Below are positions 2 to 10,578 of a DNA stretch of 64,000 nt, piece by piece. This DNA is from Scardovia inopinata JCM 12537. Its GTDB lineage: Bacteria; Actinomycetota; Actinomycetes; Actinomycetales; Bifidobacteriaceae. Position 1 is the first letter of the stretch; every line of letters starts with the position of its first letter. A program made the position numbers and the translations under genes. The notes beneath the pieces were generated by a model. It worked only from the letters and a program-made list of their open reading frames with translations. It was not told the origin of the DNA and searched no databases. Location of the stretch: the NCBI RefSeq assembly GCF_001042695.1, contig NZ_AP012334.1, positions 868,001 to 932,000 on the forward strand, given 5' to 3'.

Positions 2-982
2 AAAGTCAGCTTCACCGCGCCCGTGCCACGTGCCCTGCTACAGGATGCCGACTGGCACGTGATCGCCAGCCGCAATATCCCCGTCATCATCGAACCTGCC
101 CGCATCAATGCCAAGGCTTCGGAGATCGCGGATCCGTTGAGGGATCTGCATGACACCATTGACGAGGCCAAACAGATGATTGCCGAGGCGAGCATCGATA
201 TCGGCACCGTTTCCACTCTTGCGCCATCCAAGAAAGCGACCGGAGCGTTGACCGGTACCGGTGTGAAGCGCAAGCTCAACCTCGGCATCCCGCGCGGATC
301 CAAGATCAGCAGCGTGACCGTCACGGCGCTCGACACCGCCACCCCGACCGTGAGCACCGGCACCGACTCGAATGGAGACACCACCATCACACTCGGATTG
401 CCGCGCGGAAAGCAAGGCGAGAAGGGCGAGAAGGGAGACCCTGGCGATGCCGGCGGTCTTGCAACGGCTGATAAGGCAGGCATCGTCAGGCCGGGGCCTG
501 ATTTCAGCATATATTCCGATGGCGTTTTGTATTTGAAGGATAACGCCCGTTCGTACTCGCAGATGGGGCTTTACGCATCGCCGTTCGATGTCGGCACGTT
601 GATTGTTTACAGAGGTATGGGCATCTTCTATGATCCGATAATCACGCTCTCGCCCAATCCGGGATATCGGAGTGCGACTAGTATTGAGGGGCCGGTGGAG
701 ATTCAAGTGCTGCCGGACACCTTTGAGTTCTCACCTATAGACACCCGTGTCGTCAGATTCGTCACAATGATGTTGGTTTCCTCTCGGGGACTTACGGATG
801 GTGTTTCTCGGGTTGGTGTCAAGGCCACACCTGTCAAAGGTACCGGCAACGTCTCTCTTGAGTTCTTCGACAGTCTGGAAGCGGCGACCCCCTACACCTT
901 GTATGTGGATACGGGTTCTAGCGGTCCCAACGTCTGCTCTCCGTCATTCACGTTCCGTGTCGAGGGCGCAGCAAGGAAATGA
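2..982 (+). CDS. Phage tail/baseplate fibre protein with short collagen-like segment (5' partial)
   Basis: The frame is open to the left edge and upstream codons read naturally (KVSFTAPVPRALLQ), so the true start lies outside the window; GTG at 23 is probably internal. The N-terminal half has an alpha-helical stretch (DPLRDLHDTIDEAKQMI). The middle has repeated LGIPRG/LGLPRG units leading into a collagen-like Gly-X-Y run (GKQGEKGEKGDPGDAGG). The C-terminal half looks beta-rich. This arrangement is usual in receptor-binding or upper-baseplate proteins of phages of Gram-positive bacteria. The stop overlaps the next gene's start (ATGA), so the two are translationally coupled. Exact structural role is inferred from architecture and position before the lysis genes. 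Confidence 0.7.
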   Translation, partial: KVSFTAPVPRALLQDADWHVIASRNIPVIIEPARINAKASEIADPLRDLHDTIDEAKQMIAEASIDIGTVSTLAPSKKATGALTGTGVKRKLNLGIPRGSKISSVTVTALDTATPTVSTGTDSNGDTTITLGLPRGKQGEKGEKGDPGDAGGLATADKAGIVRPGPDFSIYSDGVLYLKDNARSYSQMGLYASPFDVGTLIVYRGMGIFYDPIITLSPNPGYRSATSIEGPVEIQVLPDTFEFSPIDTRVVRFVTMMLVSSRGLTDGVSRVGVKATPVKGTGNVSLEFFDSLEAATPYTLYVDTGSSGPNVCSPSFTFRVEGAARK

Positions 983-1335
983 ATCTTTCAACTACGCATC
1001 CGCTGATTCTCATCCTGTGCACGGTCATCGGCAGCTGCGTCGTCACCAGCATCGTCTCGTGGCTGCTACGCCGCATCGACCAACGCAGGAACCTCGAACA
1101 GGCCATCGCCGAATCCGCGACCATCCGCCGGCTCGAACTGGAGATCTACCGGCAAAGCCTGTTCCTACCCACCACGAGCCGCATGCAGCACGAACACCAG
1201 CTCGAAGCCGGCAAGGCGTACGCGGAACGCGGCGGCAACGGACCCGGCCACGTGCGCTGCCAGCAACTCGAAGACGACTACCGGCACCGGCTCGACACCG
1301 ACGACTGGAACTACCAGCCACACACCCATAACTGA
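979..1335 (+). CDS. Small phage membrane protein with one N-terminal TM segment
   Basis: This 118-residue protein has a hydrophobic segment at about residues 8-30 (LILILCTVIGSCVVTSIVSW). A charged, Arg/Glu-rich, probably helical tail follows. It overlaps the tail gene by four bases and is followed by a strong hairpin terminator, so it is the last gene of the tail operon and sits just before the endolysin. I do not recognise a family. A role in lysis (accessory holin or spanin-like) is possible from position, but nothing in the sequence proves it. Codon use is G+C-rich like its phage neighbours. Confidence 0.6.
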   Translation: MNLSTTHPLILILCTVIGSCVVTSIVSWLLRRIDQRRNLEQAIAESATIRRLELEIYRQSLFLPTTSRMQHEHQLEAGKAYAERGGNGPGHVRCQQLEDDYRHRLDTDDWNYQPHTHN

Positions 1336-1367
1336 AGAACAACAGAACAGACCGATCAGTCACAACC

Positions 1368-1406
1368 GGAAAGCCCCATGCGACGCCACTCGCAATGGGG
1401 CTTTCC
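1368..1406 (+). terminator. Hairpin terminator after the tail operon
   Basis: A 12-bp perfect stem (GGAAAGCCCCAT / ATGGGGCTTTCC) spans 1368-1406, right after the small membrane protein gene. It is only weakly followed by T. It separates the tail operon from the endolysin gene. Confidence 0.6.
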
Positions 1407-1426
1407 TCATAAGAGAGGACAAAGGC

Positions 1427-2179
1427 ATGTCCAGAATCAGACACCGACTACTCGCGGCCACGACACTGCTACTCGCCATGCTCACCGTCACGCCCAGCGC
1501 TATGGCCGACATGCATGGAATCGACGTGAGCGGCTGGCAGTCTCCGACCGTCACCTGCACCGCCGACTACGACTTCGCCGTGGTCAAGGCCACGCAAGGC
1601 ACCGGCTTCACCAACGGGTACATGACCAGCCAGGACAACTGCGTGCGACAACGAGGCAAGAGCCTCGGCTTCTACCACTACGCCGGCGGCGGCAACGTGA
1701 CCGCCGAAGCCGACTACTTCGTCAACACCGTGCGCCCCTACATCGGCCGAGCGGTCCTCGTGCTCGATTGGGAGGGCTACCAGAACGCCGCATGGGGCAA
1801 CTCCAACTGGGTGCGCGCCTTCGTCAACCACGTCCACGCGAGGACCGACGTATGTCCGCTCGTCTACACGTCCGCCGCCTACCTGTACCAGATCCCGGCC
1901 GACGTGCGCAGCCACTGCGGCCTATGGGTCGCGCAGTACGCCAACAACAACGCGACCGGGTACCAGACGAGACCGTGGAACTATGGGCGCTACGGCGAGG
2001 CCATGCGCCAGTACACCAGCAACGGCCGCATCCCTGGATACGCCGGCCCATTGGATCTGAACTACTTCCGCGGTACCACCGCACAGTGGAACAAGAACGC
2101 CAACCCCGGCAACACCACCGTCACGCCCACGCCGGCACCGACGCCGCAGCCTCAGCTCGCACCGGACTATGGCCCGTGA
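1427..2179 (+). CDS. GH25-family endolysin (lysozyme) with signal peptide
   Basis: The N-terminus is a typical signal peptide (Arg-rich start, LLAATTLLLAMLTV core, PSAMA cleavage region), so export may use the host Sec system. The mature part is a glycoside hydrolase family 25 muramidase: HGIDVSGWQ carries the first catalytic Asp, FAVVKATQG and FYHYAGGG follow, and VLDWEGY carries the catalytic Asp/Glu pair. It ends in a Pro/Thr linker (TPTPAPTPQPQ) as if a cell-wall-binding module should follow. That module, a LysM domain, lies only 11 bases downstream but in another frame. The product should cut peptidoglycan during phage release. Either this is a shortened endolysin or a frameshift has split a GH25-LysM protein. 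Confidence 0.85.
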   Translation: MSRIRHRLLAATTLLLAMLTVTPSAMADMHGIDVSGWQSPTVTCTADYDFAVVKATQGTGFTNGYMTSQDNCVRQRGKSLGFYHYAGGGNVTAEADYFVNTVRPYIGRAVLVLDWEGYQNAAWGNSNWVRAFVNHVHARTDVCPLVYTSAAYLYQIPADVRSHCGLWVAQYANNNATGYQTRPWNYGRYGEAMRQYTSNGRIPGYAGPLDLNYFRGTTAQWNKNANPGNTTVTPTPAPTPQPQLAPDYGP

Positions 2180-2190
2180 CCGCATGAAGC

Positions 2191-2388
2191 GTGCCATCCG
2201 GCGATATCAACCGTATCTGGCCCGGCCAGACCGTCACCTACCGAGGAGGCGGCACGCGGATCCACGTCGTCAGGAGCGGTGAGACGCTGAGCGGCATCTT
2301 CGGCGCGTCCGGCTGGCAGCGCGTCGCCCAACTCAACGGGCTGAGGAACCCGAACCTCATCTATCCCGGACAGCAACTGCGCTACTAG
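2191..2388 (+). CDS. LysM cell-wall-binding module, detached from the endolysin
   Basis: Sixty-five codons encode a short lead (PSGDINRIWPGQTV) and a single LysM repeat with the usual landmarks: HVVRSGETLSGIF, WQRVAQLNGL and NPNLIYPGQQL. LysM binds GlcNAc-containing glycans of peptidoglycan. The frame is -1 relative to the GH25 gene ending at 2179, and a TGA at 2185-2187 closes this frame upstream. The GTG at 2191 has no convincing ribosome-binding site. It may therefore be the broken 3' end of a GH25-LysM endolysin rather than an independent gene. A translated stand-alone binding subunit is the alternative. Confidence 0.55.
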   Translation: MPSGDINRIWPGQTVTYRGGGTRIHVVRSGETLSGIFGASGWQRVAQLNGLRNPNLIYPGQQLRY

Positions 2389-2408
2389 ACGGCCGCTGAA
2401 CCGTCCCT

Positions 2409-2437
2409 GCGGCCTTCGGCATACCGCCGAAGGCCGC
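2409..2437 (+). terminator. Hairpin after the LysM frame
   Basis: Perfect 12-bp stem GCGGCCTTCGGC / GCCGAAGGCCGC with loop ATACC, directly after the LysM stop. The T-tract is poor, but the stem is very stable. It separates the endolysin from the holin gene. Confidence 0.6.
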
Positions 2438-2477
2438 GCTTCCCATATCTGAAACTAACCAACCAAGGAGAACATTT

Positions 2478-2765
2478 ATGGATATTTCCGCAACAACCAC
2501 CCTCGCAGCCGGTATCGTCGCTCTCGTTGCGCCCGCGCTCGTACAGGCGTTCAAGAAGTACATCCCCGCCGACTACGTGGGCCTGACGTCCCTCGGCGTG
2601 AGTATCCTGCTCGGCGTTCTCGCCATCGCCGCCACCAACGGCTTCCACGGCTACGGATGGGGCATCGTCCTCACCGGCGTCATCGGCGTCGCACAGGCCG
2701 TCTACACGCTTGTCAACCAAGCGTTCAGCGGCAAGCTGAGCAAAGATGCCAAAACCAACGAATGA
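2478..2765 (+). CDS. Phage holin
   Basis: This 95-residue protein has hydrophobic segments near residues 7-25 and 36-56, and probably a third near 63-80. A short hydrophilic tail ends in KLSKDAKTNE. It has a strong AAGGAG ribosome-binding site seven bases before ATG 2478. Size, topology and position right after the endolysin fit a phage holin, which would open the membrane at the end of infection. The family-level assignment comes from these features; no specific holin subfamily is claimed. Confidence 0.75.
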   Translation: MDISATTTLAAGIVALVAPALVQAFKKYIPADYVGLTSLGVSILLGVLAIAATNGFHGYGWGIVLTGVIGVAQAVYTLVNQAFSGKLSKDAKTNE

Positions 2766-2975
2766 TGTCGAGGTAGGAGTGTATTCGCGGGCGTGCGCGC
2801 ATGCTCATATGTACGTACGGGCATAACGCACGTACGCCTGTGGGTGCGCGCGATTTACCACTGATTCCAACGTTTCGCACCTTTGCCAAAAGTTGCGAAG
2901 TGGGTATAGCCTGCAAGCGAAGCTTCGACAAACCGATCGGGAAAGGCATCAACAATCAATAGCGAAAGGACGACT
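2766..2975. other. Intergenic stretch rich in short palindromes
   Basis: No gene is visible. The stretch contains alternating purine/pyrimidine runs and small palindromes (GTACGTAC, GCATGC, CGTACG, GCGCGC) around 2,780-2,850, followed by more A+T-rich sequence and a purine-rich GAAAGGA ribosome-binding site before the next ATG. It could hold the promoter of the small gene at 2976. Confidence 0.3.
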
Positions 2976-3224
2976 ATGAACGAGACGTTTCGTCTTAATG
3001 TTCTTCTTCCCTCAGGCGAGGAAATCGACACTGGAGGTGGACTGTTGGAATTGAGCGGGGTGCTGCCGCCGATTGGAGCGGGATTCTATTGGCGCGACAA
3101 GTTCTACCGCGTGAAGGACGTGTTCTTCAATTCGGACAACAGTCCCGATCTGGGCTGGTGGATCGCTCTTGAGGATTCATCGGACGACCCGCGCAAGGCC
3201 ATCAACTCGACTTACTACCGCTGA
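2976..3224 (+). CDS. Small phage protein of unknown function
   Basis: Eighty-two residues, soluble by composition, with a good ribosome-binding site (GAAAGGACGACT) before ATG 2976. The sequence reads like a compact beta-rich domain (FYWRDKFYRVKDVFF, LGWWIALED). It is not recognised. It stands alone between an intergenic region and a terminator, just before the restriction-modification-like operon, so it is a single-gene transcription unit late in the prophage. A control protein of the neighbouring R-M genes seems unlikely because no helix-turn-helix is visible. Confidence 0.55.
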   Translation: MNETFRLNVLLPSGEEIDTGGGLLELSGVLPPIGAGFYWRDKFYRVKDVFFNSDNSPDLGWWIALEDSSDDPRKAINSTYYR

Positions 3225-3265
3225 CGGTGTTCGGGCGCCTGATCCAGTAAGAGCGTAATCGCTTA

Positions 3266-3306
3266 CGGCACTCGTCGCCTTTATGGGCGTCGGGTGCCGG
3301 CTTTTT
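3266..3306 (+). terminator. Rho-independent terminator before the R-M-like operon
   Basis: Hairpin CGGCAC-T-CG-T-CGCC / GGCG-T-CG-G-GTGCCG with a TTTAT-type loop, followed by GCTTTTTCT. It separates the small gene at 2976 from the methyltransferase genes. Confidence 0.75.
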
Positions 3307-3365
3307 CTGTATTTCCCGGAAACATCCCGTTCGGCTCGTAGTATGGAACTTCAAGGAGGTTTCCA

Positions 3366-4022
3366 GTGGCAGCACAGGTCAAGTCGAAACAGCGCGTCGG
3401 AGAGCACGGTGAGGTCTTTACCAACGAGCGCGAGGTCAACGCCATGCTCGACATGGTCAAACAGGAGACCGAACGCATCGACAGCCGTTTCCTCGAACCG
3501 GCGTGCGGCGACGGCAACTTCCTGTCCGAAGTCCTGCGCCGCAAACTCGCCGTGGTCGGCGAACGCTACGGCAAGAGCCAGCTGGAGTACGAGCGATACA
3601 CATTCGTGGCGGTGTCGTCCATCTACGGCGTGGACATCATGGCGGACAACGTGGAGGAATGCCGCGAGCGACTGTTCGGCATCGTCAAGGACGAGTACGA
3701 GCAGCACTTCAGGAATGGCTGCCGCCCCGAGGTGTTGGATTCGATCCGCTACCTGCTGTCGAAGAACATCCTGTGCGGCGACGCGCTGACCCTGACCGAC
3801 AGCGAAGGCGAGCCGATCGTGTTCCCGGAGTGGTCGCTGGTGATGGGCAGCAAGGTTAAGCGCCGCGACTTCACGTTCGCCGCGTTGCTGAACGTTTCGA
3901 CACAGGAGCCGACGTTCGACATGTTGGACGAGATCGACGAGGACGAGATGGGCAAGGTCATCCCGAAACCGATCAGGGAATACCCGTTGACGAGTTTCCT
4001 GGAGGTAGCCAAATATGAGTAG
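3366..4022 (+). CDS. Small N6-adenine-MTase-like subunit with SAM motif I only
   Basis: GTG start at 3366 follows an AAGGAGG ribosome-binding site. Residues 42-53 (FLEPACGDGNFL) are a textbook amino-methyltransferase motif I, which binds S-adenosylmethionine; EVFTNEREVNAML before it is the usual lead of type I/IIG N6-MTases. No (N/D)PP(Y/F) catalytic motif occurs in its 218 residues, and the C-terminal part (KVKRRDFTFAALL onward) resembles no MTase core I know. It overlaps the next gene by eight bases. The next protein has NPPY but a damaged motif I, so the two may form one active enzyme. R-M membership is inferred from the operon. Confidence 0.7.
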   Translation: MAAQVKSKQRVGEHGEVFTNEREVNAMLDMVKQETERIDSRFLEPACGDGNFLSEVLRRKLAVVGERYGKSQLEYERYTFVAVSSIYGVDIMADNVEECRERLFGIVKDEYEQHFRNGCRPEVLDSIRYLLSKNILCGDALTLTDSEGEPIVFPEWSLVMGSKVKRRDFTFAALLNVSTQEPTFDMLDEIDEDEMGKVIPKPIREYPLTSFLEVAKYE

Positions 4023-5596
4023 CCGACTGGATCTCGGCAACAAGTCCTATAACCCGGACGTGCTGTCGTGTCTGGCGAACCTGTCCAACGACGAGGTGTT
4101 CACCTCGCCGCAGCTTGCCAACAAGGTGCTGGATCTGTTGCCTGAGGAGATCTGGACGGACAGTTCGATCACGTTCCTTGACCCGTTCACCAAGACCGGC
4201 GTGTTCCTGCGTGAGATCACCAAGCGTCTGCTGATCGGCTTGGAGCCGGAGTTCCCGGATCTTCAGGACCGCATCAACCACATCCTGAACTATCAGGTGT
4301 GGGGCATCGCCATCACCGAGCTGACTGCGCTGCTGTCACGCCGCACGCTGTACTGCTCGAAGAAGGCCAACAGCAAGTACTCCATTGACTCACTGTTCGA
4401 CAATCCAGACGGGCACATCCATTACAAGGCTATCGAGCATCTCTGGGACGGCAAGAATTGTGTCTACTGCGGCGCCAGTAAGCAACAGTATGACCGCAGC
4501 AGCACCCTGGAAAGCTACACGTACGAATTCATCCACACCTTCCACCCGGAAAGGATCCTCAAGAACATGCAGTTCGATGTCATCGTCGGCAATCCTCCGT
4601 ACCAGCTCAGTGATGGTGGCGCCGGAGCAAGCGCCGTTCCTATCTACCAAAAATTTGTCGAGCAGGCAAAAAAGATGAATCCCCGATTCCTCTCGATGAT
4701 TATCCCATCCCGATGGTTCGGCGGAGGGCGGGGATTGGATCTCTTCCGTCACGATATGCTTCATGACGATCAAATTCGGATACTGCACGATTTCTCTGAC
4801 GCAAGTCAGTGTTTCCCCGGTCAGGAGATTAAGGGTGGTGTCTGTTATTTCCTTTGGGAGAGGGACACTCATGGCGACTGCAAGATCTATTCGCATATTG
4901 GGGATGATGTAATTCGCAGCACGCGTCCTTTGCTGGAAAAGGGAATGGAGACATTCATCCGAGACTCACGCGCTATAGCAATCTTGGACAAAGTGAAGGC
5001 CATGAATGAGAGCCCAATGTCGGCATCTTTGAATGCAGGCCGTTACTTTGGATTCCATACAAGAGTTAAATGGGATAAGGATGGCCGTTTCGGAACGTTG
5101 CAAACGGCAGATGGTAAGGGTGAGTACTCCATCTCGAAAATCAAAGACGCAGGGCATCCCATTAAGGTTTATATCGCTCACGGCGAGTGCTGGATCGCAG
5201 AAAAGTACGTAACCCGCAACACATCCGACATTCGCAGGTATAAAGTACTGATTCCGAGATCTGGGAATCCTGGTAGCACCATTATCGGCAAGCCGAAGAT
5301 TAGTGAGCCGGGCAGCTGTAGTTCAAACACTTATGTCGTTTTCTTCCCGGCCTCCGATTCGGAATCTGCTGCGGTTAATGCAGCAGATTATCTTCGTACG
5401 AAGTTTGTGCGGTACCTGATTTCACTAAGGACATCTACTCAGGACATGGCACCTCGTGCATATGAGTTTGTGCCAACGCCCGATGTATCACGACATTGGT
5501 CAGATGCCGAACTGTTTGACAAGTATGGCTTGACCGATGAAGAGAGGAAACTAATCGACGAATCCATTCCGTCGATGCAGATGGAGGATGACGGCA

Positions 5597-5604
<8 letters not shown>
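4015..5604 (+). CDS. Eco57I-like DNA adenine methyltransferase subunit with NPPY motif
   Basis: This 529-residue protein has VIVGNPPYQL at about residues 189-198, the catalytic motif IV of N6-adenine MTases. Its motif I equivalent (FLDPFTKTGVFL, residues 54-65) keeps the DP and the FL but lacks the Gly-x-Gly loop. A C-x2-C pair (CVYCGAS) lies near residue 149. IPSRWFGGGRG follows the catalytic core. The C-terminal 250 residues would hold target recognition. The second half is more A+T-rich in codon use than the first, suggesting recombination of the specificity region, a usual event in R-M systems. The stop overlaps the helicase gene. Confidence 0.8.
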
Positions 5605-8119
<2,515 letters not shown>

Positions 8120-8123
8120 ACGG

Positions 8124-8699
8124 GTGGGCTTGATTATTGCAGATCTGAACTTGTTGTTTTCGCAAAGCTGGTGGTCCGGTGTGAGCGTGCTTCTCGGCGC
8201 GCTGCTTGGCGCTTGCGCTTCCGTTATCGTCAGCCTTGCACAAGGTCATCGGGAGAAAAAGCGAATCCGACATGAATACTATGTCAATCAGAACGATAAG
8301 CTGATTATGGATTTCGCTGCTTTCATTCGTCTGTGCTTGGCCCATAATGATGCTGTGCGTGAGGCAATTGCTGCAAAGAGTCGATATGAAGACAACAAAC
8401 GCATGTATGATGACCGCTTGGTAAATCAGGATGTTCGCATCGCATTTGAGAATCGAGAACGGGAGGCCGACGCCATGCTGCTTGACTTGCAGGAGAGCTA
8501 TTCACGTTTGATTATGCGCTTTCCTGAACTCAAAGATGATGCTTGGGCATTATTGACGAATCTTCCTGATAGAAGTGACGAATCAATGGAAGAATGGAGA
8601 AAGTGTCTGTCTGCTTTTCGTACGAATGTGACTCGATTGTATGCGAGGAATGAGAAGAAAAGTTTGCTTACTTGGTTTCAGAAGATCAAAAGGGGATGA
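8124..8699 (+). CDS. One-TM membrane protein, probable partner of the next gene
   Basis: The frame starts four bases after the helicase stop; GTG 8124 (GAGGAG upstream) or TTG 8130 are the possible starts. Residues about 16-39 form one membrane segment (WWSGVSVLLGALLGACASV), followed by a basic stop-transfer stretch (GHREKKRIRHEYY) and a long, charged, helical cytoplasmic part of about 150 residues. No catalytic motif is seen. Its stop lies three bases before the next start, so the two are co-transcribed and probably coupled. Codon use is much more A+T-rich than the R-M genes. Membrane anchors paired with NAD- or nucleotide-attacking effectors occur in phage-defence modules; that role here is inference. 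Confidence 0.6.
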   Translation: MGLIIADLNLLFSQSWWSGVSVLLGALLGACASVIVSLAQGHREKKRIRHEYYVNQNDKLIMDFAAFIRLCLAHNDAVREAIAAKSRYEDNKRMYDDRLVNQDVRIAFENREREADAMLLDLQESYSRLIMRFPELKDDAWALLTNLPDRSDESMEEWRKCLSAFRTNVTRLYARNEKKSLLTWFQKIKRG

Positions 8700-8702
8700 A
8701 CC

Positions 8703-9872
8703 ATGGCATCTAGCAGTACGCTTTCGTGGATGGAGAAGGACCCATTCATTAAGTTGTTTAACCGTGGCGGATATGTCTTGGACTTCAATGATTTTCGCTT
8801 TGATGCTTTTACGCAGGAAAGTGTCGGAGTTCCCTTATTGACAAGATACGGCCTTTCCAAGGGCAAGTCTTTGGAAAAATTTGCGAATGAGGCGCCTCGT
8901 AATGTTGTAATGAAGTTGTTTTCTGACTTGATGGATTATTACGAGTATGATTTCATCCAACAAGATGACAATGACGCCGATTACCAAAGGCTATATAAGC
9001 GCTGCAAAAAGATACTTTCATCGACAGCAGTACAGGGCGGCAGCAAGGAGGCGGGCATGTTCTTTAACGTTATTATCCGACTAGACGAATCTCAGGCAAT
9101 GCCTTCCGATCGTATGTTTGAGGGAACAGATCCGCGAATCGCTGCAAGATTTAGAAACTACGACGGTTCTCCCAACTTTGATCTCCTGCGCACGCTTCCC
9201 ACTATTGCGGTACGCGAGTTTTATCAAGATGAAAGCGCCGTCGCCAGATTGGGGTATCTCGGTTCGGATCCAGCACACCAGTTAAGTGAGATTATCGAGA
9301 CATTTCCGGCGGCAAAATTAAACGATATTCTTCCTAGGAGTGGCTGGCTGGGATCTCGTACTCGTTGGATGGTGTTTGCCGGCGACCCTTATCGTCTGAT
9401 AGGAAATATGCAGGAAAACTATCAGGCTATTCAGAACCCGGCAGTAGTCCAGTTCCCACAAGTTTCTATTGAAGACAAGCAAATTGCGGTTATGATGCCT
9501 TTCAATAGCAGCTATATGACGCCAGATGACGACCCCGTATACAGGGCAATCAAGGCGGCCGGGGAGCAGTTGGGCTACTCATGCGTTAGGGCTGATGAAA
9601 TTCACACCCCGACTGACATCAAGGATGATATTTTCAAGTTGATTGAAGGCTCGAAGATTATTATCGCAGATTTAAGCGGCGGAAATCGTAATGTCTACTA
9701 TGAAATGGGACTGGCCCACGCTCGCGGTCGAATTGTCATCCCAATATCCAGTGACAGCGGAACCCTCCCTTTCGATATAGGGCATATTCGGACGGTGCTT
9801 TTCCATAGAAGCACTCATGGCATGGAAGGCCTCACTCACGATCTTGTGCAATCCTTGAAAGCTATCGGCTGA
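8703..9872 (+). CDS. Protein with C-terminal nucleoside-deoxyribosyltransferase/TIR-like domain (candidate defence effector)
   Basis: In this 389-residue protein, residues from about 259 to the end match the nucleoside 2-deoxyribosyltransferase-like fold: IAVMMPFNSSY, DDIFKLIEGSKIIIADLSG and NVYYEMGLAHARGR, the last with the Glu expected to be catalytic. The roughly 250-residue N-terminal part (YVLDFNDFRFDAFTQESVGV, YGLSKGKSL) is not identified and may be the sensor. Related domains act as toxins in retron and other anti-phage systems by destroying nucleotides or NAD. The partner upstream is a membrane protein. A house-cleaning nucleotide hydrolase is the alternative. Start ATG 8703 follows AAAGGGG. 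Confidence 0.6.
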   Translation: MASSSTLSWMEKDPFIKLFNRGGYVLDFNDFRFDAFTQESVGVPLLTRYGLSKGKSLEKFANEAPRNVVMKLFSDLMDYYEYDFIQQDDNDADYQRLYKRCKKILSSTAVQGGSKEAGMFFNVIIRLDESQAMPSDRMFEGTDPRIAARFRNYDGSPNFDLLRTLPTIAVREFYQDESAVARLGYLGSDPAHQLSEIIETFPAAKLNDILPRSGWLGSRTRWMVFAGDPYRLIGNMQENYQAIQNPAVVQFPQVSIEDKQIAVMMPFNSSYMTPDDDPVYRAIKAAGEQLGYSCVRADEIHTPTDIKDDIFKLIEGSKIIIADLSGGNRNVYYEMGLAHARGRIVIPISSDSGTLPFDIGHIRTVLFHRSTHGMEGLTHDLVQSLKAIG

Positions 9873-9951
9873 GCCAACGGTCAATAATAGAGAACTCTCA
9901 CATCGTGAATGATTAGATCCCAGTAATCCTTGTTAAAGAAGGGGATTCCTA

Positions 9952-10578
9952 ATGCAGCCGAAGCAAGGTTCTGAACGATTTGTCCTCAATAAGGACAGTA
10001 GCAGTGGTATGGCTATTGTCCATAGAATTGATTGTGGTGCCATTCGGCACCAAGTTGAGCAAGATGTGCGAGAAGAGCTTCCCCGTCAGGACTTTATCGA
10101 AATTGGTCAGGATTCCACTGGTGTATCGCTGTATCGTGAATCCACTCGATGGGACACTTTCCGGTATGAGGCCTCATATGTCACACGAGACGAACTGGCA
10201 CAGACCGGTCTGAGATATCGTCCCTGTAAGATATGCAATCCTGACCTTCCGTCACGTAGCCAAGTGAAGTCGATAAGCATTCATGCTGTGGATCTTAAGT
10301 CTCACCACTTGGGGAAGTTCTTCTTCGGATGGGGTATCTTGGAGCGCTTTGTCATCACTTGTCAGTTGGACAAGGATGAACGGCCGGAAGTGTTCATAGA
10401 CGCATACTTCGATAAAGAGACTTCGCATCGGTTCCAGCCAGACGATGTGCTTGAATATCCGAGACAAATCAGGACAAAAACTAATGAAGAACCTGTTCCT
10501 CAGTCATCCGACCATCCGGCCGTTGGAGAAGCGTGTCTGAATCGTGTCTGTGGCTCAGACACGATTCAGACACAATGA
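9952..10578 (+). CDS. Orphan accessory protein with HxxxC...CxxC zinc-site-like motif
   Basis: This 208-residue protein starts at ATG 9952 after AAGGGG. His24-x3-Cys28 (VHRIDC) and Cys92-x2-Cys95 (RPCKIC) give a zinc-site-like pattern of the HRxxC...RPCxxC kind seen in small bacterial DNA- or nuclease-associated domains. The middle (FFFGWGILERFVITCQLD) looks like a beta-strand-rich domain. The last 15 codons are made of a perfect palindrome (10533-10573), so the natural C-terminus may have been replaced. Family and function are unknown. It is the last gene before the attachment junction and shares the A+T-richer codon use of the two preceding genes, but it is 79 bases away and may have its own promoter. 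Confidence 0.5.
   Translation: MQPKQGSERFVLNKDSSSGMAIVHRIDCGAIRHQVEQDVREELPRQDFIEIGQDSTGVSLYRESTRWDTFRYEASYVTRDELAQTGLRYRPCKICNPDLPSRSQVKSISIHAVDLKSHHLGKFFFGWGILERFVITCQLDKDERPEVFIDAYFDKETSHRFQPDDVLEYPRQIRTKTNEEPVPQSSDHPAVGEACLNRVCGSDTIQTQ
10533..10573. repeat. Perfect 18-bp inverted repeat made of nested GTGTCTG units
   Basis: Arms GTGTCTGAATCGTGTCTG and CAGACACGATTCAGACAC are exact reverse complements around the loop TGGCT. Each arm itself contains GTGTCTG twice, four bases apart. It lies within the last codons of the upstream gene and lacks a T-tract, so it is not a standard terminator. It might act as an end signal of the element, a protein site, or a bidirectional transcription block. 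Confidence 0.85.

Follow-up and report, generated by a model that had tools for sequence, protein, structure and literature searches.

The window, which is the whole stretch of 64,000 nucleotides analyzed here, harbors three overlapping genes on its plus strand. The first gene (3366-4022) has a GTG start and encodes M1, a small subunit of 218 aa that represents the SAM-binding half of an N6-adenine methyltransferase. The second gene (4015-5604) encodes the large subunit M2 of 529 aa, which consists of a degenerate SAM half, an NPPY half and a target recognition region and matched the Pfam family Eco57I (3.5e-34). The third gene (5597-8119) encodes R, a nuclease-helicase with Pfam matches to T5orf172, a GIY-YIG domain (1.4e-8), and to the ResIII helicase domain (3.6e-5). 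For M1 the Pfam match was weak and below the cut-off (MmeI_Mtase, 0.00065). Up to an E value of 1 no MT-A70 domain was listed by Pfam for the locus, which has Eco57I and NPPY instead of DPPW. The reading frame of R opens at 5588, and with the likely start at 5597 it overlaps M2 by 8 bases (ATGCCTGA). GGAGG is present upstream of each start. A sequence-only reading of this DNA had described a small protein that lacks NPPY but has a perfect SAM motif I, a large protein with NPPY and a motif I without the Gly loop, and a gene overlap of eight bases. The read-out of the open reading frames confirmed these points for M1 and for M2, which carries Lys in place of the first Gly, and the 8 bases shared by the two genes are ATGAGTAG. 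The R gene with its own overlap, the lost motif II acid of M2 and a conserved Cys/His cluster in M2 are additions to that reading.

Upstream of the restriction-modification (R-M) genes lie a tail-like gene (23-982), an endolysin gene (1427-2179) and a holin gene (2478-2765). A viral contig (L002) contains an identical stretch. Downstream, a 212 aa ORF (8061-8699) directly precedes a gene for a 389 aa protein (8703-9872), whose C-terminal part matched the PADLOC model of a TIR effector (8.5e-9) and, weakly, TIR_2. This TIR-like gene is a possible second defence unit. Within the region 23-10578, the R-M genes together with the TIR-like gene downstream of them resemble defence genes carried as cargo at a prophage end.

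Distribution of M1 and M2

A scan of 84,980 species genomes yielded at least 580 relatives, and the loci of the best 80, which were kept, cover many bacterial phyla as judged by the record titles. From viral contigs, 79 loci were fetched by M2 and 79 loci by M1, and annotated records were added. In a tblastn search, 84 plasmid records contained M2 relatives, and in 37 of them one place covers at least 80% of M2. Within the phylum, 10 of 296 genomes, including that of the window, have M2 at E ≤ 1e-60. The gene content and the close locus L017 of Bifidobacterium subtile would place the genome of the window in the Bifidobacteriaceae. M1 overlaps M2 or is at most 50 bases away from it in 94 of the 104 pairs found within 3 kb.

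M1 (residues 13-104) and M2 (residues 24-113) are paralogous by profile comparison (hhalign probability 97.7%, E 1.3e-12). A frameshift or split of one ordinary gene was rejected, since M2 has its own N-terminal half homologous to M1 and since 114 of the 171 scored loci have a separate M1 together with a full-length M2. That M1 is an unrelated small ORF was also rejected.

In the genome of the window, M2 had one match. M1 matched the locus, the paralogous stretch of M2 and one remnant (C1:421768-422094; L253 1477-1944). The latter is a second, truncated M1 in a 155 aa ORF, with only the C-terminal half present (profile 106-214, 67.6 bits). The adjoining ORF presumably resembles McrC. The truncated M1 may have been left behind by another DrdVI-like system.

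The SAM-binding motifs are conserved in M1

Motif I of M1 (FLEPACGDGNFL, 3489-3524) spans residues 42-53 and includes Gly48 and Gly50. Motif II is YGVDI (3624-3638, residues 87-91) with the acid at residue 90, and a motif III-like Gly-Asp is found at residues 138-139 (3777-3782). In all 101 aligned M1 rows both glycines of motif I were constant and the motif II position was either D (71 rows) or E (30 rows). The motif III-like Gly was present in 100 of these rows, followed by D in 74 and N in 27 of the 101. Both motif I glycines were also found in all 130 distinct M1 hits of at least 60 bits from loci fetched through M2. Over all loci the count was 176 of 176, part of which had been fetched with a pattern that contained these glycines.

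A divergent subclass of M1 scored below 60 bits and is outside these glycine counts. Eight of its sequences were read (L013, L014, L088, L127, L132, L133, L136, L151). Their motif I is EITCGEAPY or EISCGEAPY (CGEAP versus CGxGN), in which the first Gly is retained and Ala stands in the place of the second. An acid is still seen at motif II in the alignment, which comprised six of the eight sequences, and the N-terminus is longer than in the usual M1. In L013, L088 and L151 the divergent M1 stands with an M2 N-terminal half of the Lys type described below. No M1 was found for L145, which has the Lys type as well.

M2 carries the catalytic motif next to an altered SAM half

The N-terminal half of M2 (M2N, residues 1-183, 4015-4563) is the paralogue of the N-terminal part of M1 and has lost the SAM motifs. 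In the altered motif I (FLDPFTKTGVFL, 4174-4209) Lys60 replaces the first Gly, and at the motif II position (GIAIT, 4303-4317, residues 97-101) the acid is replaced by Ala99. A His/Cys cluster (4438-4536), consisting of H142, C149-x-x-C152 and H174, is located at the expected place of motif III. Then follow the catalytic motif IV NPPYQ (4591-4605, residues 193-197) and the C-terminal region (5035-5601, residues 341-529), which is a probable target recognition domain (TRD). We refer to the C-terminal half of M2 as M2C. When the window was compared to locus L003, M1, R and M2N were 94%, 92% and 91% identical, respectively, and the TRD only 28%, which places the specificity in the C-terminal part of M2.

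Lys60 and NPPY were present in all 108 aligned full-length M2 rows. The motif II position was A in 86, G in 18, S in 3 and P in 1 of these rows and an acid in none. H142, C149 and C152 were found in 108 of 108 rows and H174 in 107, and this cluster is a possible zinc site. Many of the 108 rows stem from the genome scan, whose pattern held the Lys, and row L002 repeats the window. The viral scan for M2, which used patterns off motif I, therefore gives the fair count for Lys60: 29 of 30 distinct full-length M2 proteins have it, the exception being an M1-M2 fusion with Gly (L130). The conservation of Lys60 also led us to reject the idea that M2 is a normal, complete methylase whose motif I was misread in sequencing.

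Over 165 M2N-like stretches, the residue at the Lys60 place was Lys in 135, Gly in 26, Ala in 3 and Thr in 1. The 30 stretches without Lys include the fusion L130, the R-fused L212 (Thr) and L233 (Ala), the 1721 aa protein of L169 and the single-chain L138 and L143. They further comprise small M1-like proteins that also matched the profile (L153, L155, L157, L158, L159, L162) and phage methyltransferase-like genes beside an M1-like gene (L155-L159, L162, L171, L232, L245, L249).

In gamma-class methyltransferases, which have a Rossmann fold, motif I precedes NPPY and the TRD is C-terminal. M2 showed this order and, as described below, this predicted fold, and the canonical motif I was found in M1 only. 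Instead of the intact motif I and the motif II acid expected in the catalytic chain, M2 has Lys60 and Ala99. M2 has lost the first Gly of motif I and the motif II acid, and M1 lacks the catalytic motif; we regard these as complementary losses of a conserved pair.

Natural fusions of M1 with the NPPY half

In two loci (L130, 520 aa; L131, 523 aa) a single ORF leads from M1 directly into M2 from MQFDVIIGNPPYQ on, and M2N is absent. No R was found on either strand of the DNA fetched for these two loci. L137 and L140 have M1 and a short M2 that begins at the MQFDVIIGNPPYQ point. These natural joined forms indicate that M1 and M2C can make up one methyltransferase. The identity of L131 to an intact pair from a Sphingopyxis plasmid is 64%; L131 may for this reason be a recent deletion product, which weakens its weight for a composite active site. 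The sequence-only reading had proposed a heterodimer with one composite active site, or a small subunit that feeds SAM to the large one. The conserved pair with its complementary losses and the joining of M1 to the NPPY half in L130 and L131 partly support this proposal, for which either a composite site or SAM feeding would fit.

Other arrangements were also seen. R, M2N and M2C form one chain in L009, L013 and L145. L138, L143, L147 and L148 encode single-chain relatives that have no M1 beside them and retain the Gly loop, in line with a composite site in the split pair; no motif I was recognized in the single chains of L149 and L150. L250 (5071-6507) encodes a permuted single chain with NPPF at residue 8 and an M1-like SAM domain at residues 310-440.

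M2N occurs together with R

We scored 153 loci, each with an M2C match of at least 100 bits, for the presence of M2N and R, using the ORFs of the plus strand and, for 13 loci initially without R, of both strands. M2N and R were both present in 124 loci, M2N without R in one, M2C with R and without M2N in seven, and neither M2N nor R in 12; nine loci were not scorable. Among the scorable loci, R thus accompanied M2N in 124 of 125 and was present in 7 of the 19 without detected M2N; these loci share descent, so the counts are not independent. In the only locus with M2N and without R (L008), M2 is overlapped at its end by a gene for a Tn3 transposase. Six of the seven R loci without M2N encode R-M2C proteins of one chain, which may conceal a diverged M2N, and L135 has such a gene adjoining. 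The 12 loci with neither comprise six single-chain methyltransferases (L138, L143, L147-L150), L129 with another kind of helicase, L128 with a 31-bit fragment of R, and the clean cases L014, L130, L131 and L140. In six loci, among them phage loci (L212, L214, L216, L217, L230, L151), R carries M2N as a C-terminal fusion, with M2C encoded by a gene of its own; L214, L216, L217 and L230 are close relatives of each other. The association suggests that M2N serves restriction. No published description of it was found in the literature searched.

These observations allow for another reading, in which one C-terminal half has two N-terminal halves: M1, which is live, would serve methylation, and M2N, which is dead, would serve restriction as the link between R and the recognition subunit. 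The near-constant company of M2N and R, the R-M2N fusions apart from M2C and the joining of M1 to M2C without M2N in two phage contigs lacking R all favor it. Its weight is reduced by the kinship of the loci and by the composition of the R-free group, in which six single-chain enzymes, another helicase and an R fragment occur, while 7 of the 19 loci do have R. Structure prediction, moreover, paired M2N with M2C and gave no confident docking of M1 (see below). We consider this reading rather unlikely. Unlikely as well is its extension to M2C as a module with exchangeable N-terminal halves, which would become a methyltransferase with M1 and the recognition arm of R with M2N, marked by its Lys motif I and Cys/His cluster. 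If true, one and the same recognition module would protect DNA or attack it, depending on which half-domain is swapped in.

Structure prediction and covariation

AlphaFold2 predicted a complete gamma-class methyltransferase fold for the M2 of the window alone, with M2N paired with M2C (73 rows, pLDDT 85.7, pTM 0.85). M1 is therefore not needed for completing the fold. The best Foldseek matches of the model were BrxX and CamA. VIA-align superposed model residues 15-506 on CamA (7rfk_A) with Z 22.9 and rmsd 4.6 over 410 aligned residues; for BrxX (9ewz_C) the values were Z 20.1, rmsd 6.2 and 458 aligned. The residues of the SAM loop in the predicted pocket are altered and are not those of a SAM site. 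A complete SAM pocket predicted for the large subunit alone had been named as an outcome that would speak against the heterodimer, and it was found by half: the fold is complete, but the pocket residues are not of the SAM-site type.

We also folded M1 and M2 of L083 as one joined chain with the stops read through (52 rows), using an alignment that was checked row by row; alignments with M1 or M2 rows placed on the paralogous half were not used. This chain reached pLDDT 77.3 and pTM 0.62. M1 itself was folded in it, with ten-residue pLDDT means of 83-98 over residues 41 to 180. As judged from the pTM and the ranges of the fold matches, M1 was not docked confidently, and CamA aligned to residues 313-795, which again represents the pairing of M2N with M2C. 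In 113 pairs (effective 90) the covariation between M1 and M2N among the top 1000 was 1.1 times the expectation. Against M2C, the same pairs gave 0.18 of expectation for M1 and 0.23 for M2N, and no contact signal between M1 and M2C was detected. We read the covariation as reflecting the shared history of M1 and M2N with exchange of M2C, not contacts. The complete fold of M2 alone, the undocked M1 and the low M1-M2C value count against a composite site, as do the CGEAP motif of the divergent M1 subclass and the lack of a detected M1 in L145.

The complete fold would fit an M2 that methylates alone. M2 would then bind SAM within its own fold with the participation of Lys60, and M1 would be an accessory for stability, specificity or regulation. 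Such a role of M1 is also favored by the missing second Gly in the divergent subclass and by phages, in which M1-like proteins are encoded beside methyltransferases or methyltransferase-like proteins with Gly at the Lys60 place (L155, L156, L158, L159, L165, L171, L232, L245, L249). Rescue of a dead SAM site is thus not the general role of the M1-like proteins in these distant phages, and this speaks against the composite reading, too. However, the first Gly and the motif II acid are gone in every aligned M2 row, and both glycines and the acid are kept in every aligned M1 row. An accessory protein would have no need of an intact SAM site, so the conserved site of M1 argues against catalysis by M2 alone, which we regard as quite unlikely.

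Some phage loci have a composition of their own. L171 (3311-10349), L155 (4648-8728) and L159 (4760-7581) contain two to five tandem methyltransferase-like genes for proteins of 378-411 aa with DPAxGGGQF and NPPY or NPPF, plus one small M1-like gene; possibly one small subunit is shared among several specificity subunits. For 12 further phage M1-like proteins (L207, L209, L210, L213, L215, L218, L223, L225, L227, L229, L240, L246), no [NDS]PP[YFW] was present in any ORF of at least 100 aa on either strand of the fetched stretch. They are possibly lone SAM-binding halves. In Klebsiella phage vB_KpnM_KpV477 (L259, 975-2926) three small genes lie in a row, encoding an NPPY half, a tail and a SAM half. 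The first has a GIY-YIG-like start, as seen by eye, and NPPY, the second matched the C-terminal end of M2 weakly (23 bits), and the third is M1-like with EPSAGDGN. This arrangement may be a compact T4-like phage version of the system.

A pseudo-dimer like METTL3-METTL14, in which M1 as a paralogue would bind SAM or another ligand for structure or sensing and take no part in catalysis, is improbable: M1 and M2N are indeed paralogues that share more history with each other than either does with M2C, but here the SAM site and the catalytic motif are on different chains, whereas in METTL3-METTL14 one partner has both, and the fusions of M1 with the NPPY half suggest that the M1 pocket is used.

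Proposed function of the three genes

We propose that the locus encodes a three-gene R-M system of the DrdVI type, in which methylation needs both M1 and M2, with the cofactor pocket of M1 completing the active site of M2. We assign this reading a probability of about 70%. M1 would hold SAM, and M2, whose own SAM half seems to have lost the capacity for SAM binding, would read the site, flip the adenine and supply NPPY. Together they would produce m6A at a short asymmetric site. R, a GIY-YIG nuclease/helicase, would translocate on and cut unmethylated DNA. Two geometries are conceivable for the pair: M1 may displace M2N on M2C, or it may dock on the complete M2 fold. Gene order, the motif losses with their conservation, kinship to DrdVI and the natural fusions were observed directly here. 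Methylation by the M1-M2 pair is expected by analogy to two relatives described in papers, DrdVI and MaeIV. That this strain most likely requires M1 as well as M2, and that R acts as described, we infer; the composite active site itself is plausible, although unproven.

If methylation indeed needs both subunits, cloning of M2 alone, the gene annotated as the methylase, would leave DNA unprotected against this system. Settling which half pairs with which would reveal how a single recognition subunit can be used for methylation as well as for restriction.

Comparison with known systems

The tblastn search of plasmids led to pDrdVI of Deinococcus wulumuqiensis 479, which has the same three genes in the same order. 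Identity to the DrdVI proteins was 41% for M1 (residues 5-216), 45% for M2 (residues 2-526) and 59% for R, and the homology of M1 and M2 extends over their full length. Like DrdVI, the locus has one gene for a fused translocase and GIY-YIG nuclease. M1 of DrdVI has EPACGSGNF and M2 has DPCTKSGVF and NPPYQ, which are alike in kind to the motifs of the window. The target recognition region is just 32% identical, so the target of DrdVI is not transferable to the window. Unlike the plasmid genes, those of the window adjoin prophage lysis genes.

M1-2.DrdVI is an m6A methylase for GCAGCC, and its methylase genes were cloned in E. coli ER2796 (PMC6430315). Its authors list DrdVI as IIG (PMC6430315); a strict Type IIG enzyme, with nuclease and methyltransferase in one polypeptide and a single TRD, differs from the locus, in which M1, M2 and R are three separate ORFs. 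'Split methylase/RM genes' are already in print, as the available part of PMC10113651 states, and M1-M2.MaeIV from Methanococcus aeolicus methylates GCACY to m6A according to the same part. There it is described as 'split methylase/RM' similar to DrdVI, with the two M genes cloned together (PMC10113651). MaeIV is archaeal, unlike the window, and is likened to it by this published description. The accessible text of PMC4996451 describes one gene whose two ends resemble M1.DrdVI and M2.DrdVI, respectively, and calls DrdVI a fused translocase and REase. In Bibersteinia trehalosi, Btr188ORF1790/1760 is fused, frameshifted or in several ORFs and, as far as the published description at hand goes, inactive; it is likened to the window by that description. 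The DrdVI-type family is thus already named in print, and the locus is not new in kind.

No account of the mechanism of the DrdVI-type split was found in the literature searched, and the available parts of the papers searched contained no assay of one DrdVI-type subunit by itself. Split DNA methyltransferases may be partly active with one subunit, for which the available part of PMC4335053 cites fragments of M.HhaI, and this speaks against a strict composite site. As far as their available text goes, PMC3936762, PMC3526280, PMC4752239 and PMC12707154 deal with other enzymes, frameshifted genes or other multi-gene IIG-like systems.

The gamma-class adenine methyltransferases CamA and BrxX/PglX share the fold of M2, including the TRD, and CamA structure entries with SAH or sinefungin were among the Foldseek matches. 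Unlike these enzymes, M2 has Lys in motif I and lacks the motif II acid. CamA and BrxX/PglX combine SAM binding and catalysis within a single chain. To our knowledge, it is rare among adenine methyltransferases that one chain carries the cofactor site and another the catalytic motif, while in each chain the counterpart site has decayed. The family described here shows this arrangement in bacteria of many phyla, as judged by the record titles.
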